From: a virus
DNA length: 27,025 bases
Strand: one strand, 5' to 3'
IMG/VR virus record: IMGVR_UViG_3300042914_002041
Coordinates: 1 to 27,025 of that record
Part shown: piece by piece, positions 2,279 through 9,255 of the stretch
How positions within the stretch are numbered: position 1 is the stretch's first letter
Layout: the number at the start of each line of letters is the position of its first letter
Program-made: the position numbers and the translations under genes
Notes under the pieces: model-generated
The model's input: only the letters and a program-made list of their open reading frames with translations
Databases searched by the model: none
What the model was told of the DNA's origin: nothing

Positions 2279-2512
2279 TTATTTGATTTGGTCGATCCAG
2301 TCGCCGGTCTTCATGAGGTCGCGTTGCGCGTCGGCCAGTTTGCGCTCGGCTTCGGCGATCTTGTCGCGGAGCTTGACCCAGTCGCCGCCGCTCTCGTAGT
2401 CCATGAGCCGGCGGTTGACGCTGGCGTAGAGTCTCGCCATCGACGCCGCGGTCGCTTGCATCTCGAACTCGACGGCCTCGAGTTCCTTCTGAATGTCCGC
2501 CAACGTCTTCAT
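2279..2512 (-). CDS. 77-aa coiled-coil hypothetical protein
   Basis: Almost entirely helical and charged: heptad-like Leu/Ile/Ala spacing runs through LADIQKELEAVEFEMQ and again through KLRDKIAEAERKLADAQRDL. The ATG (2510-2512) overlaps the TGA of the upstream DUF2829-like gene, and the gene ends with TAA 3 bp before the zinc-ribbon gene. No enzymatic motif or membrane segment. It could be a small structural or regulatory coiled-coil partner of one of its neighbours; nothing more can be said. Confidence 0.72.
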   Translation of the reverse strand: MKTLADIQKELEAVEFEMQATAASMARLYASVNRRLMDYESGGDWVKLRDKIAEAERKLADAQRDLMKTGDWIDQIK

Positions 2513-2727
2513 GCCTCAACCTCCCAACCGTCCTCGAGGAGCGCCCACAGGAGCCACTCCTTGTCTTCCGAAACGTCCCGAACGAAAATCGGGGTGCCGT
2601 GCGCGATGATGGTGTAAACGCCGATCTCGTCGTCGCGCCATGCGCTGATCCAGCAATCCTTGGTCCATCGACCATGCCGAATCCGCTTGCCATCCCGCAT
2701 GGCTTGCAGAGCTTCAGATCCACTCAC
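2509..2727 (-). CDS. DUF2829/Tad2-like small protein (second of a tandem pair)
   Basis: 72 aa from a GTG start at 2725-2727. This start overlaps the upstream stop (GTGA) and lies behind a GGGAGG ribosome-binding site; the longer in-phase frame beginning at 2799 would overlap the previous gene by 76 bp and was not chosen. The pattern EALQAMRDGKRIRHGRW near the N-terminus and a Trp-rich C-terminus ending DGWEVEA match the layout of DUF2829 proteins (helix with A-x2-x-G-K-x-V-x-R-x2-W, closing acidic DW-x-V). Members of that family include Tad2, which sequesters the cyclic ADP-ribose signal of the Thoeris defence system. Family membership is inferred from pattern only, and an anti-defence role is a hypothesis. 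Confidence 0.66.
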   Translation of the reverse strand: MSGSEALQAMRDGKRIRHGRWTKDCWISAWRDDEIGVYTIIAHGTPIFVRDVSEDKEWLLWALLEDGWEVEA

Positions 2728-2936
2728 TCCACTACCTCCCAATCGTTCGATCGCCACTGGTGCGCCATGTAGCTGGCGCTCCGACATCGGAGCCGCCATT
2801 CCCTCGAGCCGGCGAATCGAGGGGCCGGACGATCGTCCTCGAGCCGCTCGACCCAGACGTGGTAACCGGATGGCCAGACGTTGCGCCGAACCTTGTATCC
2901 GGCCAACACCGCGGCGAACGCTTCGCGCCCGGTCAT
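2724..2936 (-). CDS. DUF2829/Tad2-like small protein (first of a tandem pair)
   Basis: 70 aa, starting at ATG 2934-2936, which overlaps the stop of the upstream low-GC gene (ATGA). N-terminal MTGREAFAAVLAGYKVRRNVW and C-terminal WRSNDWEVVE reproduce both conserved ends of the DUF2829 fold; the middle holds HVWVERLEDD and a basic, Arg-rich loop. It resembles the protein encoded immediately downstream in both end motifs, so the pair probably arose by duplication and divergence. DUF2829 includes Tad2, a Thoeris inhibitor that binds the signalling nucleotide. Fold assignment is moderately sure; the ligand is unknown. Confidence 0.7.
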   Translation of the reverse strand: MTGREAFAAVLAGYKVRRNVWPSGYHVWVERLEDDRPAPRFAGSREWRLRCRSASYMAHQWRSNDWEVVE

Positions 2937-3259
2937 TCGGGCCTAAGCTTGTGAAAGATATTTTCGGCGAGTTCTCCTCTAGCTACCCAGCAATACTGGG
3001 CGAGATCGAGGACCGATCGTTCTACTGGGTAGTTCCAATAGACCGTCAGAGTGCCTTCATGATCTTCGAGTCCAGCAATGGGCCATCCGTGATGAACATC
3101 GAAGACATCGAACTGCTTGAATATCGGCAAATTGGAATACCGATTCGCAAAATCCAAGAAGAATTGAACCAGCCGCGTATCGGAGGTAAACATCAAGCGA
3201 TTCGCGTCGCAATTCTTGAAGTACTGTTCAAAAATCCCCGAATTAAGATCTGATTTCAC
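2933..3259 (-). CDS. 108-aa hypothetical protein, low GC
   Basis: Unknown protein beginning MKSDLNSGIFEQYFKN. It starts at GTG 3257-3259, which overlaps the TGA of the DUF3310 gene (GTGA) and sits behind a GGGGGAG ribosome-binding site. It is rich in aromatic residues (FEQYFKN, FFLDFANRY, VYWNYPVE) and looks like a small globular cytoplasmic protein. The DNA here is visibly poorer in GC (near 47-48 percent in the stretches counted) than the genes on either side, which suggests recent acquisition. A plus-strand open frame crosses the same DNA but lacks a supported start; overlap with both neighbours favours the minus-strand gene. Confidence 0.72.
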   Translation of the reverse strand: MKSDLNSGIFEQYFKNCDANRLMFTSDTRLVQFFLDFANRYSNLPIFKQFDVFDVHHGWPIAGLEDHEGTLTVYWNYPVERSVLDLAQYCWVARGELAENIFHKLRPE

Positions 3260-3486
3260 TTGGTCTCCCCCATCTTGTCGAGGACCGTCTTATGGGCGTC
3301 GGCCCGAAGCGTCGAGCCGGTGATCGCGAATGTGAGGTACCAGGCGGCCTTGATCAGGTCTTCGCGGCCACCCTTGTCCTTGTACCGGGCGAGGTACTTG
3401 ATGACGTTCCCGAGGGCGAAATCGAGTCCCCAGTCGTCGATCACCTGAATCGCTTGAATGGAACCCTTGCGGTAGTGTTCGCTCAT
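3256..3486 (-). CDS. DUF3310 (SaV-like) phage protein
   Basis: 76 aa. The family signature is clear: HYRKGSIQAIQVIDDWGL, then FALGNVIKYLARYKDKGG, then EDLIKAAWYL. DUF3310 proteins are common in tailed phages, usually near replication or nucleotide genes. The fold resembles helical nucleotide-pyrophosphohydrolase-like proteins, but their role is not settled. The ATG (3484-3486) overlaps the TGA of the upstream 48-aa membrane peptide gene, and the stop overlaps the next gene's GTG. The open frame extending upstream is a shadow. Confidence 0.88.
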   Translation of the reverse strand: MSEHYRKGSIQAIQVIDDWGLDFALGNVIKYLARYKDKGGREDLIKAAWYLTFAITGSTLRADAHKTVLDKMGETK

Positions 3487-4465: not shown

Positions 4466-5797
4466 TCAGAAAATCCCGAGCTTCCAAGCCACCCGCTGGC
4501 CATCCTCGATCCGCTCGACCGACATCGCGGCGTAGAGCTGGTCAAGCTCGGCGATGATCTTGTTCCGGTTGCCCTTCACCAGCTCCACCACCCGGTTTGT
4601 CGAAATCGCCTCAGAATCGCTCAGGACGGCCAGAATCCGATCGGATAGGGCAGAACTGCCAATACCGCCCTTGCGCCCGTGTATGGACAACGTGGACGCC
4701 TCCTTGGCCGTGTCGCGTTCGACAGGCTCGATCCGGAATGAACCGTCGTCCAACGAATCGACGCAGAACGCGATCTCCCCGACCGAATCCTCCTCGAGGT
4801 GCCGGTGCTTCGTGATCCGGAAAACATAGGCTCCGGAATCCTTCTCGATGGCCGCCATGATGTCCGCCTGCGCCGCGATCTCACCCGCCCCGCGGGTCGC
4901 CTCGTGGGCCACCGGAGACCCGGTCCCGCTCTTCCGGTGGTGGTGGAGGCAGACCACCGCGGAGCCGGCGTCCATCATCTCCCGAAAGCATTTGAACAGC
5001 ATGGCCATCTCGGTGTTGCTGTTCTCATCCTTGCCATGGACTCGGACGAAGGTGTCGACCACCACCAGGCGGATCTGCCGGTCGCGGATGTGCTTGACAA
5101 CCTGCGCCAGATGGTCGGGGTCGTCGAGCCGGACGTTCGAGCGCTGGAGGATCGAGAGACGGTCCGGCGGAACCCGCAAACCATCGAGCCGGCGGAAGAA
5201 CGCGGACGGTCCCATCTCCTCGTTTATATAGAGAACCGATATAGGTTTGAGGACGTTCCGAGACGCCAGCCAGCGGTCGCCGGTGACGCATGCGCGGACC
5301 AGATCGACCGCCGCCCAAGTCTTTCCGCCACCCGGCGGAGCGGTGATGAAATGAAGCCCGCCGGCGATCACCAGATCCTCGACCAGCCATTCGGCATCAC
5401 CCGATTCGGCGGCCAGCTCGGCCAAGCGGTCCAGCCCAATGAACTCGAGCGGAGACTTTGCCTGCTCGAGGATGCTCTGGGGAGTCGCGTCCTCGAGGCC
5501 GCCCTCGAGCCACCGGACCCATCCCCGCTGGATCTTGTCGCGGATGTCCCCGACCGACATCGGAGGATCGAGGTATGTCTGATTCCACCATTCCGCGAAC
5601 GCCACCGCGGCGTCGAACGGTACCCGCTTGGCGCGTAGGAATCCGAGGAGCTTGGTGGCGGCGTTGTCCCGACCGCCGAACGGTCCACCGCCCTCGGGGT
5701 GGCGCTCGAACAGGTCGTTCCACTCCCCGCCCTTGCCACCCGGCGAAGCAAAACCAGCGTCATCGTCGTCGACGATGGCGTCGTAATCGATCGGCAT
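4466..5797 (-). CDS. Replicative helicase, PriCT plus RecA-like (AAA_25/RepA type)
   Basis: 443 aa. Residues about 40-100 form a PriCT-like helical domain (GGRDNAATKLLGFLRAK, then AEWWNQTYLDPPMSVGDI). The RecA-like core follows: Walker A APPGGGKT (153-160, Lys159), Walker B IRLVVVDTF (242-250, Asp248) and a His cluster, CLHHHRKS (283-290), typical of hexameric RepA/DnaB-like helicases of the AAA_25 group. The last roughly 70 residues (SDRILAVLSDSEAISTNRVVELVKGN onward) look like a winged helix. It should unwind DNA at the phage origin with the primase encoded immediately upstream. Start ATG 5795-5797 is preceded by AAGGGATAGATA, which carries the TAG stop of the primase. The origin-like repeats start right after its stop. 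Confidence 0.9.
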   Translation of the reverse strand: MPIDYDAIVDDDDAGFASPGGKGGEWNDLFERHPEGGGPFGGRDNAATKLLGFLRAKRVPFDAAVAFAEWWNQTYLDPPMSVGDIRDKIQRGWVRWLEGGLEDATPQSILEQAKSPLEFIGLDRLAELAAESGDAEWLVEDLVIAGGLHFITAPPGGGKTWAAVDLVRACVTGDRWLASRNVLKPISVLYINEEMGPSAFFRRLDGLRVPPDRLSILQRSNVRLDDPDHLAQVVKHIRDRQIRLVVVDTFVRVHGKDENSNTEMAMLFKCFREMMDAGSAVVCLHHHRKSGTGSPVAHEATRGAGEIAAQADIMAAIEKDSGAYVFRITKHRHLEEDSVGEIAFCVDSLDDGSFRIEPVERDTAKEASTLSIHGRKGGIGSSALSDRILAVLSDSEAISTNRVVELVKGNRNKIIAELDQLYAAMSVERIEDGQRVAWKLGIF

Positions 5798-6733: not shown

Positions 6734-7093
6734 TCAGATTTCGATTTGGAAGCCGACATGGTCGGCGATCGCCCGAGCGGCTTCGGGCCAACTGTAACAT
6801 ATCGCGAACCGATATCCAAACGGCTCGAGCTGTTCGCGCCACTTGGCCTGCTCGACCGTGAGTCGGCCTTTGGGAGCCTTCATCTCGATCCATAGGCCGG
6901 GAGCCGGCACCGGAAGGAAGATGTCCCAGACGCCGGCGCGAACCCCGAGCGCCTTGAACTTCGCGGCGGTTCGCGGGTCGCGGTACCCCCCGTTCGGCGT
7001 GTGGTACGCCAGCGCCAGCTCGGGATGCTTCGTCGCCATCAACCGGAGCCACGTCACCAGAGCGATCTGCTCCTTATCCTCGAGGTGTTTCAA
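6734..7093 (-). CDS. VRR-NUC domain nuclease
   Basis: 119 aa. The VRR-NUC (PD-(D/E)xK) arrangement is complete: Glu8 in EDKEQIALVTWL, HTPNGGYR (31-38), Gly54-x2-Asp57 in RAGVWDIFLP, Glu70-x-Lys72 in LWIEMKAPKG, and Gln82 in LTVEQAKW. Stand-alone phage VRR-NUC proteins act on branched or flapped DNA in replication and recombination. The start is TTG (7091-7093) four bases behind AGGAGG and overlaps the end of the sigma gene by 20 bp; the next Met is too far inside the fold. It belongs to the same unit as sigma factor, primase and helicase. Confidence 0.9.
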   Translation of the reverse strand: MKHLEDKEQIALVTWLRLMATKHPELALAYHTPNGGYRDPRTAAKFKALGVRAGVWDIFLPVPAPGLWIEMKAPKGRLTVEQAKWREQLEPFGYRFAICYSWPEAARAIADHVGFQIEI

Positions 7094-7889
7094 CTTGCCT
7101 CCTGAGTCGCTTGAGCAGGGATCGGAGCTTCTGCTCGATGTTGGCCGGACTGCATCGCTCGGCCGCGGCGATCTCCCGCAAGGACATCGGATCGGAACCG
7201 TCGAGCCCGAATCGCATCGTCAGGAGCCGGCGGTAGTTGTCCGGCAGTTGCTCAATGTGATCCATGATCCTGTCCATCTCGATGGAATCGACGATCGATC
7301 CTTCGTGGGACTGGTGTGCATCGATGGTGGACGCGTCCTGGTAATTTGCCAGCGACAGATCCTCGAGGAAGAACAGCTCGAATGCCGACATCCGTTTGAG
7401 GTCGGCCAGCATCGCGGCGTTGCAATCAAGGTGGGCCATGATCTGCTGGTCGCTCGGATCGGCCCCGTGTTCGCGCCGGTGGGCGTCGAGGTACTTGTTC
7501 ATCCGGCGGTATCGGTAGACGGTATGCTCGGGAATCCGCGTGGCCATGCTCGATTCGAGCGTCATCCTTCGGACGCGGCTCGAGATCCAGTAGGTCGCGT
7601 ATGTCGAGAACTTCCACCCCATGGCGGGATCGAACCGTTCGACCGCCTTCGATATGCCGACCAGAGCCTCGGTCATGGCGTCGTCGACGATATTGCCCTT
7701 GGACCATTTGGCGATCATCTTGAGAGCCAGGCCCCGGTGTTGCCGGAGCATGGTCTCCATCGCATCCTTGGCCTCGATGCCCTGCTGGACTGCAAGGCAA
7801 AGGACCGCGTCCTCTTCCTTGGTGGGGATGCGGTCCTCGATTGCCAGCCTACGGACTATCCCGCGGACCATCGCGGGAGTCACTTTCAC
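7074..7889 (-). CDS. Sigma-70 family RNA polymerase sigma factor
   Basis: 271 aa from GTG 7887-7889, which overlaps the stop of the XRE repressor (GTGA); an ATG six codons later (7871) is an alternative start. Region 2 is clear: RGLALKMIAKWSKG, then DPAMGWKFSTYATYWISSRVRR (88-108) matching 2.3-2.4. A helical region 3 follows (RIPEHTVYRYRRMNKYL), and region 4 has LPDNYRRLLTMRFGLDG then SLREIAAAERCSPANIEQ as its HTH (about 215-255). There is no long region 1, so this is a group 3-like or minimal primary-like factor. Phage sigma factors redirect host polymerase to phage promoters. Coupling to the repressor gene suggests the two are made together. Which promoters it reads is unknown. Confidence 0.9.
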   Translation of the reverse strand: MKVTPAMVRGIVRRLAIEDRIPTKEEDAVLCLAVQQGIEAKDAMETMLRQHRGLALKMIAKWSKGNIVDDAMTEALVGISKAVERFDPAMGWKFSTYATYWISSRVRRMTLESSMATRIPEHTVYRYRRMNKYLDAHRREHGADPSDQQIMAHLDCNAAMLADLKRMSAFELFFLEDLSLANYQDASTIDAHQSHEGSIVDSIEMDRIMDHIEQLPDNYRRLLTMRFGLDGSDPMSLREIAAAERCSPANIEQKLRSLLKRLRRQVETPRG

Positions 7890-8092
7890 CCGGTGGACTC
7901 GCCGGCAAGTCGGGCTTGCCGTCGCCGGATGATCATGGCCATGACCTGATCCGGTGCCATGCCCAACGCCTCGGCCAATCGGGAAAGGTTGTCGTCCTTG
8001 GGGATCATCCTGCCGGACAACCAAGCGGAGACCTGCGGCTGGTGCGCTCCCATGCGGGAGGCGATGTCGTTTTGACTCAATCCTCTGATCAT
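7886..8092 (-). CDS. XRE/Cro-type repressor
   Basis: 68 aa, essentially one helix-turn-helix domain: LSQNDIASRMGAHQPQVSAW (5-24), with the recognition helix HQPQVSAWLSG, then NLSRLAEALGMAPDQVMAMI completing the five-helix bundle. There is no C-terminal dimerisation or autocleavage domain, so it resembles small Cro-like or phage-plasmid control proteins. The ATG (8090-8092) lies at the edge of the divergent region before erf, which holds a perfect inverted repeat suited to a dimeric repressor. The start has no ribosome-binding site and a TATACT only 6 bp upstream, suggesting a leaderless message. Its stop overlaps the sigma start. Confidence 0.88.
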   Translation of the reverse strand: MIRGLSQNDIASRMGAHQPQVSAWLSGRMIPKDDNLSRLAEALGMAPDQVMAMIIRRRQARLAGESTG

Positions 8093-8174: not shown

Positions 8175-8693
8175 ATGAATCACTCGACGGATATCTCGAA
8201 GATCGCCTTGGCGCTTGTCAAGGCACAAGCCGCCATGCCGGCGGTCGGCAAGGAAGGCAACAACCCGGCGTTCCGGTCCAAGTACATGACGCTCGACGGC
8301 ATCCTCTCGGTCGCCGTCCCCGTGTTGACCGCGAACGGCATGGCCCTGGTGCAAGGCTCCGAGGTCGTCGCCAAGGACGACAACGATCGGCCGGTCTCGA
8401 TCACGGTCGAGTCCCGCCTGATCCATGAATCGGGCGAATGGATTGCGTCGAGCGCCACCATTCCCGTATCGAAGCCGGACGCCCACGGCATGGGCTCGGC
8501 GATCACCTACGGTCGGCGCTACTCGGTGGCATCCCTGCTCGGCATCATGGCCGGCGAGGACGACGACGCGAACGGCGCGGCGAACGTGGCGCCGCAACCG
8601 CAAACACGGCAGACCACGCAACCCTCGAGGCCGGTAAAGCTTCGGGGATTCCACATCTCGGAACCGATTGGAGGAAACAATGGCAATGGTTGA
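8175..8693 (+). CDS. erf: ERF-family single-strand annealing recombinase
   Basis: 172 aa. ATG 8175-8177 follows GGAGG; the in-phase frame extending upstream reaches through the promoter and was rejected. ERF superfamily pattern: an N-terminal helix with KIALALVKAQAAMPAV, NPAFRSKYMTLDGI (30-43), a beta-rich middle, and the diagnostic GSAITYGRRYSVASLLGI (107-124). The tail is Gln/Thr/Pro-rich and disordered. ERF proteins anneal complementary single strands and help circularise or recombine phage DNA. It is the first gene of the plus-strand unit under the operator-bearing promoter and overlaps the Gam-like gene by 14 bp. Confidence 0.92.
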   Translation: MNHSTDISKIALALVKAQAAMPAVGKEGNNPAFRSKYMTLDGILSVAVPVLTANGMALVQGSEVVAKDDNDRPVSITVESRLIHESGEWIASSATIPVSKPDAHGMGSAITYGRRYSVASLLGIMAGEDDDANGAANVAPQPQTRQTTQPSRPVKLRGFHISEPIGGNNGNG

Positions 8694-9255
8694 AATCGAC
8701 GGTGAGCTTTGGGACGACGAGACCGGGAACTACCTCGGCCCCGTCTCGGTGTGGATCGATGGCGACATCGATTCGGAGGAGAAGGCTCTGGTGGCGATGC
8801 GTCGCCACCTCGAGCTGGAGACCCAACTGGCGGCGCGAAAGGCCGAGCTGGCGATCGTCCAGTCGAACATCGAGCGGCTGGTGAAGGACGCCGGTAAACG
8901 GCTCGAGTGGTTCGCGAGCAGGTATGGGGAACAGCTCAAGGGCTTCGCGATCGACAACATGCCGAGGGACAAGGCCGGCAACATCAAGACCAAGACGTGG
9001 CGATGCCCTTACGGCACCATCTCGATCCGGTCGGTGGCTCCGAAGGTCGCGGTGATCGACGAGGGCAAAGCGATCGAGTGGGCCGAGCGGTCGTGCCCCG
9101 CGGCGGTCAAGATCAAGCGCTCGATCCTGATCTCCGAAGTCCCCGCGGAGATCAAGGCAAAGATGCTGGCCAAGCCGGAAGCCGCCGAGCAGGTGGGGTT
9201 CCGCGTCGTACCGGGCGAAGAGGTCGTCCACATCAAGACAGGAGTGGCGGAATGA
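8680..9255 (+). CDS. gam: Gam-like host-nuclease inhibitor / Gp157-like protein
   Basis: 191 aa from ATG 8680-8682 behind GGAGGAAACA. A long coiled coil (about residues 30-75: MRRHLELETQLAARKAELAI onwards) is followed by KTKTWRCPYGTISIRSVAPKVAVID, the strand pair characteristic of Mu Gam-like proteins. A C-terminal segment, KAKMLAKPEAAEQVGFRVV, matches the Gam ending in which a residue string with PEA precedes a GI/GFRV strand. Mu Gam coats double-stranded ends and protects them from exonucleases, which fits its pairing with the ERF annealase. The related siphovirus Gp157 family is the alternative name. Confidence 0.82.
   Translation: MAMVEIDGELWDDETGNYLGPVSVWIDGDIDSEEKALVAMRRHLELETQLAARKAELAIVQSNIERLVKDAGKRLEWFASRYGEQLKGFAIDNMPRDKAGNIKTKTWRCPYGTISIRSVAPKVAVIDEGKAIEWAERSCPAAVKIKRSILISEVPAEIKAKMLAKPEAAEQVGFRVVPGEEVVHIKTGVAE

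Follow-up and report, generated by a model that had tools for sequence, protein, structure and literature searches.

Two adjacent genes for very small proteins in an environmental phage carry marks of the Tad2 family, and the question they raise is whether they form an anti-Thoeris locus, as was suggested in an initial annotation made from the DNA alone. The window analyzed here is a 27,025-base stretch, positions 1 to 27,025 of the virus record IMGVR_UViG_3300042914_002041. The two genes, termed copy A and copy C, belong to a run of small minus-strand genes (Table 1). The DUF3310 gene is the upstream end of this cassette run and is followed by the 108-aa orphan, A, C and the 77-aa gene, with an exact 4-nt start/stop overlap at each junction between 3483 and 2279. 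The pair and its GTGA coupling were found where they had been annotated. The claim of small orphan neighbors also held, since the 108-aa ORF had no match in Pfam, PHROG or PADLOC and the 77-aa ORF had no convincing family match. Copy C could alternatively be read from a longer ATG frame (2509-2799, 96 aa); the short start is favored because six relatives (L003, L004, L005, L007, L009 and L010) have ATG at the position of its GTG. Seven related contigs, all from this phage lineage, carry orthologs of both A and C at 79-99% identity; dN/dS is 0.05-0.25 in copy A and 0.02-0.22 in copy C. Both are therefore maintained proteins under purifying selection.

Table 1. The run of overlapping small genes around copies A and C, in order of transcription; positions are those of the window.
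Feature	Position	Strand	Remarks
DUF3310 protein (PHROG: nucleotide kinase domain)	3256-3483	minus	PF11753, 55 bits; phrog_236, 1.8e-21
Cassette Y, 108-aa orphan gene	2933-3259	minus	bounded exactly by RTGA overlaps on both sides
Copy A, 70-aa short Tad2-like protein (MTGREAFAAV...NDWEVVE)	2724-2936	minus	ATG start
A/C start/stop overlap, GTGA	2724-2727	minus	site of copy B in L009/L010
Copy C, 72-aa short Tad2-like protein (VSGSEALQAM...DGWEVEA)	2509-2727	minus	GTG start
77-aa gene downstream of copy C, ATGA-coupled	2279-2512	minus	

The assignment to DUF2829, now PF11195, was recovered from the single copies only in part, as weak N-terminal matches that missed the curated cut-off of 25 bits. 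Copy A scored 18.5 bits over residues 1-38 and copy C 17.6 bits over residues 4-37, so that membership in PF11195 would be assigned to neither on profile score alone. Their kinship is settled by array-mates from other phages, described below, which match PF11195 over their full length and above the cut-off (copy B of L009, 29.4 bits; the third copy of L012, 27.0 bits); 46 of 49 array-type proteins match it individually at E <= 0.01. When profiles of the A and C subfamilies were compared, they aligned with each other along residues 1-23 at an hhalign probability of 49%, and both gave a much stronger alignment with the array-family profile A4 (98.6% over the full length for C, 97.4% over residues 1-29 for A), so that the likeness noted between the ends of the two proteins is above chance. 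Profiles of array copies retrieved HgmTad2, SPO1 Tad2, ClbTad2 and ModTad2 from the PDB (best E 6.5e-5). The structures below agree, and the Tad2-like relationship first proposed for the pair stands: A and C belong to the Tad2-like superfamily as short and diverged representatives. Sequence searches of the PDB with the single copies gave chance matches only, and searches of NCBIfam and PADLOC with the copies gave no match. Seven array-type queries run by tblastn against 50,697 isolated-phage records returned nothing significant, and two scans of genome contigs found no relative.

Single-chain AlphaFold2 models were built from 47-49 aligned sequences and reached a pLDDT of 96.1 for copy A and 95.1 for copy C. 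Both show the order alpha1-beta1-beta2-beta3-alpha-alpha-beta4. For A, the expected Tad2-like structure was recovered against the PDB, where the top eight Foldseek matches are all Tad2 (probability 0.91-1.00, TM 0.55-0.62, E 0.018-0.11), and the membership of the modeled protein in the Tad2 fold is well supported. For C it was recovered only against viral models: no Tad2 match was returned from the PDB, the best matches in BFVD are annotated as DUF2829 or 'Thoeris anti-defense 2-like' (probability 0.99-1.00), and membership of the predicted fold is moderately supported. Fold-match E-values are modest overall (0.001-0.1). A Pfam match of copy C to SH3_6 (18.9 bits, cut-off 27) fell below the cut-off, was unsupported by the fold and was rejected.

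The window pair is a small instance of something more general, exchangeable arrays of such genes, which the initial annotation missed. Tandem runs of 2-6 genes were found at 25 of 35 array-type loci, a figure that is not a prevalence because these loci were found by queries taken from arrays (several, moreover, come from related phages). As a control, loci fetched with canonical Tad2 showed an adjacent second copy in 0/80 cases, and 48 of 50 canonical records hold a single PF11195 copy by Pfam. Three copies (A, B and C) are present in the sister phages L009 and L010, and three also in L012, which is unrelated to the window phage. The longest runs comprise six consecutive copies (L040) and five (L056); in the 165-kb record to which L048 belongs, Pfam matches number ten in total. 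Successive copies meet in an exact 4-nt overlap at 33 of 36 junctions, including the GTGA of the window; the overlaps are nearly all ATGA or GTGA, with one TTGA. Recent tandem duplication as the origin of the arrays was rejected in view of the divergence of array-mates, which are mostly 20-45% identical. Arrays of this kind, which in other environmental phages comprise as many as six consecutive Tad2-like genes, are apparently undescribed.

With moderate confidence, we read A and C as minimal Tad2-like members of translationally coupled paralog arrays in which each paralog would sequester a different host signaling nucleotide. Canonical Tad2 is a homotetramer of V-shaped dimers, and each paralog would likewise form a small oligomer. 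Across 49 array-type members the ends are conserved and the middle is variable; the N-terminal helix with beta1 and the C-terminal DWEV may thus provide the scaffold, and the middle the specificity. A pocket lined by the conserved Trp21 and the variable center would bind and sequester the host nucleotide, for which gcADPR, His-ADPR, a cyclic dinucleotide or another nucleotide are candidates. If different paralogs took up different nucleotides, one array could block several signals at once. Tad2 proteins are known to act as sponges for gcADPR, His-ADPR and cyclic dinucleotides (PMC12043709; PMC13299392). The function proposed here, sequestering nucleotide immune signals, is also that of Tad1, Acb2 and Acb4, although those sponges have different folds (PMC11722364, PMC12043709).

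The best of the alternatives, which we nonetheless consider unlikely, is that the copies inhibit other host proteins, with each paralog aimed at a different one. The precedent is AcrIIA7, which is described as an anti-CRISPR, is covered by PF11195 (PMC6739104) and thus has the DUF2829 domain in common with the array proteins; its structure (PDB 9kzr) was also retrieved from the PDB by an array profile (E 0.005-0.09). The diverged middle of the array copies would also fit an arms race with proteins. However, the likeness shown here is that of the domain: the AcrIIA7 chain has 158 residues and its reported target is type II-A CRISPR. The solved Tad2 relatives, by contrast, bind nucleotides, and the conserved aromatic Trp21 would suit base stacking.

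Somewhat more doubtful is the anti-Thoeris reading itself, in which A and C are canonical Tad2 proteins that trap gcADPR or His-ADPR. The array copies do share superfamily, fold and a phage-encoded origin with SPO1 gp34.65, ModTad2, HgmTad2 and ClbTad2, and also Ala6, Gly13, Trp21 and the terminal DW; both window copies keep these three residues and end in D/G-W-E-V. The residues invariant in three canonical Tad2s (SPO1, Mod and Hgm) nevertheless include W21-N22-G23-K24, M26, W69, S72 and D75 as well as the terminal DW, and comparison with these proteins showed that A and C both lack two segments, the NGK-M of the beta1-beta2 loop and W-x-(P/A)-S-x-x-D. At the position of the Tad2 WNGK-M the window copies read WPSGY and WTKDC, and Trp21 is all that remains in them of the canonical segments W21-N-G-K-x-M and W-x-(P/A)-S-x-x-D. 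Residues 19-25 form the beta1-beta2 loop in our models. According to a review, gcADPR is bound at the beta1-beta2, beta3-beta4 and beta4-alpha3 loops, and the site for cyclic dinucleotides lies in an insertion between beta2 and beta5 (PMC12043709); judging by this description of the loops, the NGK-M and W-x-(P/A)-S segments probably belong to the pocket. The insertion is apparently missing from A and C, which at 70-72 aa are shorter than the solved Tad2s (about 88-104 residues). The array copies are also tandem, whereas canonical Tad2 is a single gene. It thus appears from the alignments that A and C have kept the scaffold and differ in the ligand-site segments, which argues against naming them anti-Thoeris proteins. 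Of the candidate anti-Thoeris locus, the Tad2-like kinship is supported; the specific function is not and is one possibility among others, PF11195 being a family that extends to AcrIIA7 as well.

The neighborhoods of the arrays bear on a third alternative. The 98 neighbor ORFs of 21 array loci include seven for ThyX, five for dUTPase/DCD, four for DUF3310 and three for SNase, and all four are missing from the 25 most frequent neighbor families of canonical loci. Some arrays contain fusions of a helix-turn-helix (HTH) and a Tad2-like domain: L024:4603-4995, with HTH_7 above its cut-off and the Tad2-like part at 55-116 (18.7 bits), and L043:4282-4689, with the Tad2-like part at 72-133 (19.0 bits). 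Close relatives of these fusions are found at L042:4042-4449, L062:260-667 and L067:404-811. The fusions are candidate ligand-responsive regulators; if the paralogs are nucleotide sponges, they may sense the same ligand class and regulate the operon. Because the arrays often adjoin ThyX, dUTPase and DUF3310 genes, a metabolic role is allowed, in which the arrays are accessories of nucleotide metabolism that bind (d)nucleotides, buffer them or control the phage's nucleotide synthesis, and have no part in defense; the fusions, as possible ligand-sensing regulators, would suit such a role. We rate it as improbable, and below both readings just discussed: anti-defense genes of an early region may have such neighbors in any case, related phages contribute many of the array loci, and the patchy gain, loss and swapping of copies fits counter-defense better than core metabolism. 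ThyX, a flavin-dependent thymidylate synthase, was seen directly beside or within arrays at L021:5715-6386, L042:5214-5855 and L057:868-1512.

The array copies have been shared between phages. Most are closer to a copy in another phage group than to any array-mate (72 of 74, a number inflated by about a dozen because L009 was not grouped with its sister phages in this count). The ortholog of copy C in the unrelated L012 has 78% nucleotide identity between dissimilar flanks, and the GC content of the L012 stretch is 50%, against 62% for the window; copy B is common to L009 and L021 (84% nucleotide identity). Among sister phages whole genes have been gained or lost exactly at RTGA, the direction of these changes not being polarized by an outgroup. 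In L009 and L010 it is copy B that occupies exactly the A/C junction. At another junction, the sequence of L005 and L007 reads ...gagaccaaGTGA and runs directly into ccgggcgcg..., that of the window and L006 reads ...GTGA-Y-ATGA before the same ccgggcgcg..., and that of L003 reads ...GTGA-X-GTGA before ccgggcgcg..., where X encodes 145 aa. Gene Y (108 aa) is present in the window and L006 and absent from L004, L005, L007 and L009, and L003 has X instead.

Support is mixed for DNA homology at the DWEV/MTG junctions as the force that drives this shuffling. Exact repeats of 17-27 nt lie near junctions in L009, L021, L040 and L056; identity at 4-fold sites, however, is 0.38 within arrays, barely above the 0.32 between arrays, and genes X and Y entered without DWEV/MTG junction homology. 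Ordinary mosaicism, with the pair as two small early genes that remain from an ancient duplication and the arrays as a by-product of shuffling at start/stop overlaps that has no combined function, would account for the insertion of unrelated genes (X, Y and Z) at the same kind of RTGA junction, but it is very improbable given that the arrays are specific to the short subfamily in the locus counts above, and reach six consecutive Tad2-like genes, and that dN/dS is well below 1 for A and for C.

Between sister phages, the presence or replacement of unrelated small genes (108 aa, 145 aa and 167-170 aa) coincides precisely with 4-nt RTGA start/stop overlaps (window 3256-3259, 2933-2936 and 2509-2512; L003-L010). 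The 77-aa gene of the window is replaced by a 167-170 aa gene at L004:882-1385 and L006:1870-2382; the first ~10 codons are nearly kept (MKTLA.IQKE) and the rest is unrelated, as if swapped behind a conserved start.

Two adjacent DUF2829 genes, P60-P61 of the isolated phage SpaA1, were annotated in 2012 (PMC3398947). They resemble the window pair in their arrangement but are of the SPO1-gp34.65 type, form a pair only and were left uninterpreted, with no array or cassette exchange described. DUF2829 proteins had also been noted among the neighbors of AcrIIA7 homologs in a 2019 survey (PMC6739104). Among papers available without subscription, our literature search found no description of tandem arrays, cassette exchange or HTH-Tad2 fusions. 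Tad2-like proteins and one adjacent pair are thus already known; the pair itself is a modest finding and the interest lies in the array system. Beyond the reading of A and C as nucleotide-sequestering paralogs, we tentatively suggest that the arrays are modular, multi-specific sponges: 2-6 short Tad2-like genes joined by 4-nt overlaps, exchanged as whole cassettes between unrelated phages, each possibly directed at a different immune nucleotide, with the HTH-Tad2 fusions of some arrays as ligand-responsive regulators. If the arrays are such sponge repertoires, phages would counter several nucleotide-based defenses with swappable tiny binders and not with one broad sponge, and would thus carry a genetically encoded, exchangeable repertoire against nucleotide-signal immunity. 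The variable middle of each copy would then offer a natural library in which to look for new immune signals, and the evolution of ligand-trapping specificity by cassette exchange becomes testable. The analysis further directs attention to a Tad2 subfamily whose members often fall short of the cut-off of the current Pfam profile.

Elsewhere in the window, a phage-encoded sigma-70-family factor was identified at 7074-7943 on the minus strand (Sigma70_r2, 33 bits; r4 weaker), with genes for a VRR-NUC nuclease (6734-7093) and an AAA_25/PriCT_1 protein (4466-5797) as neighbors. A Mu Gam-like protein (PF07352, 30.1 bits) is encoded at 8668-9255 on the plus strand, opposite to the replication genes.
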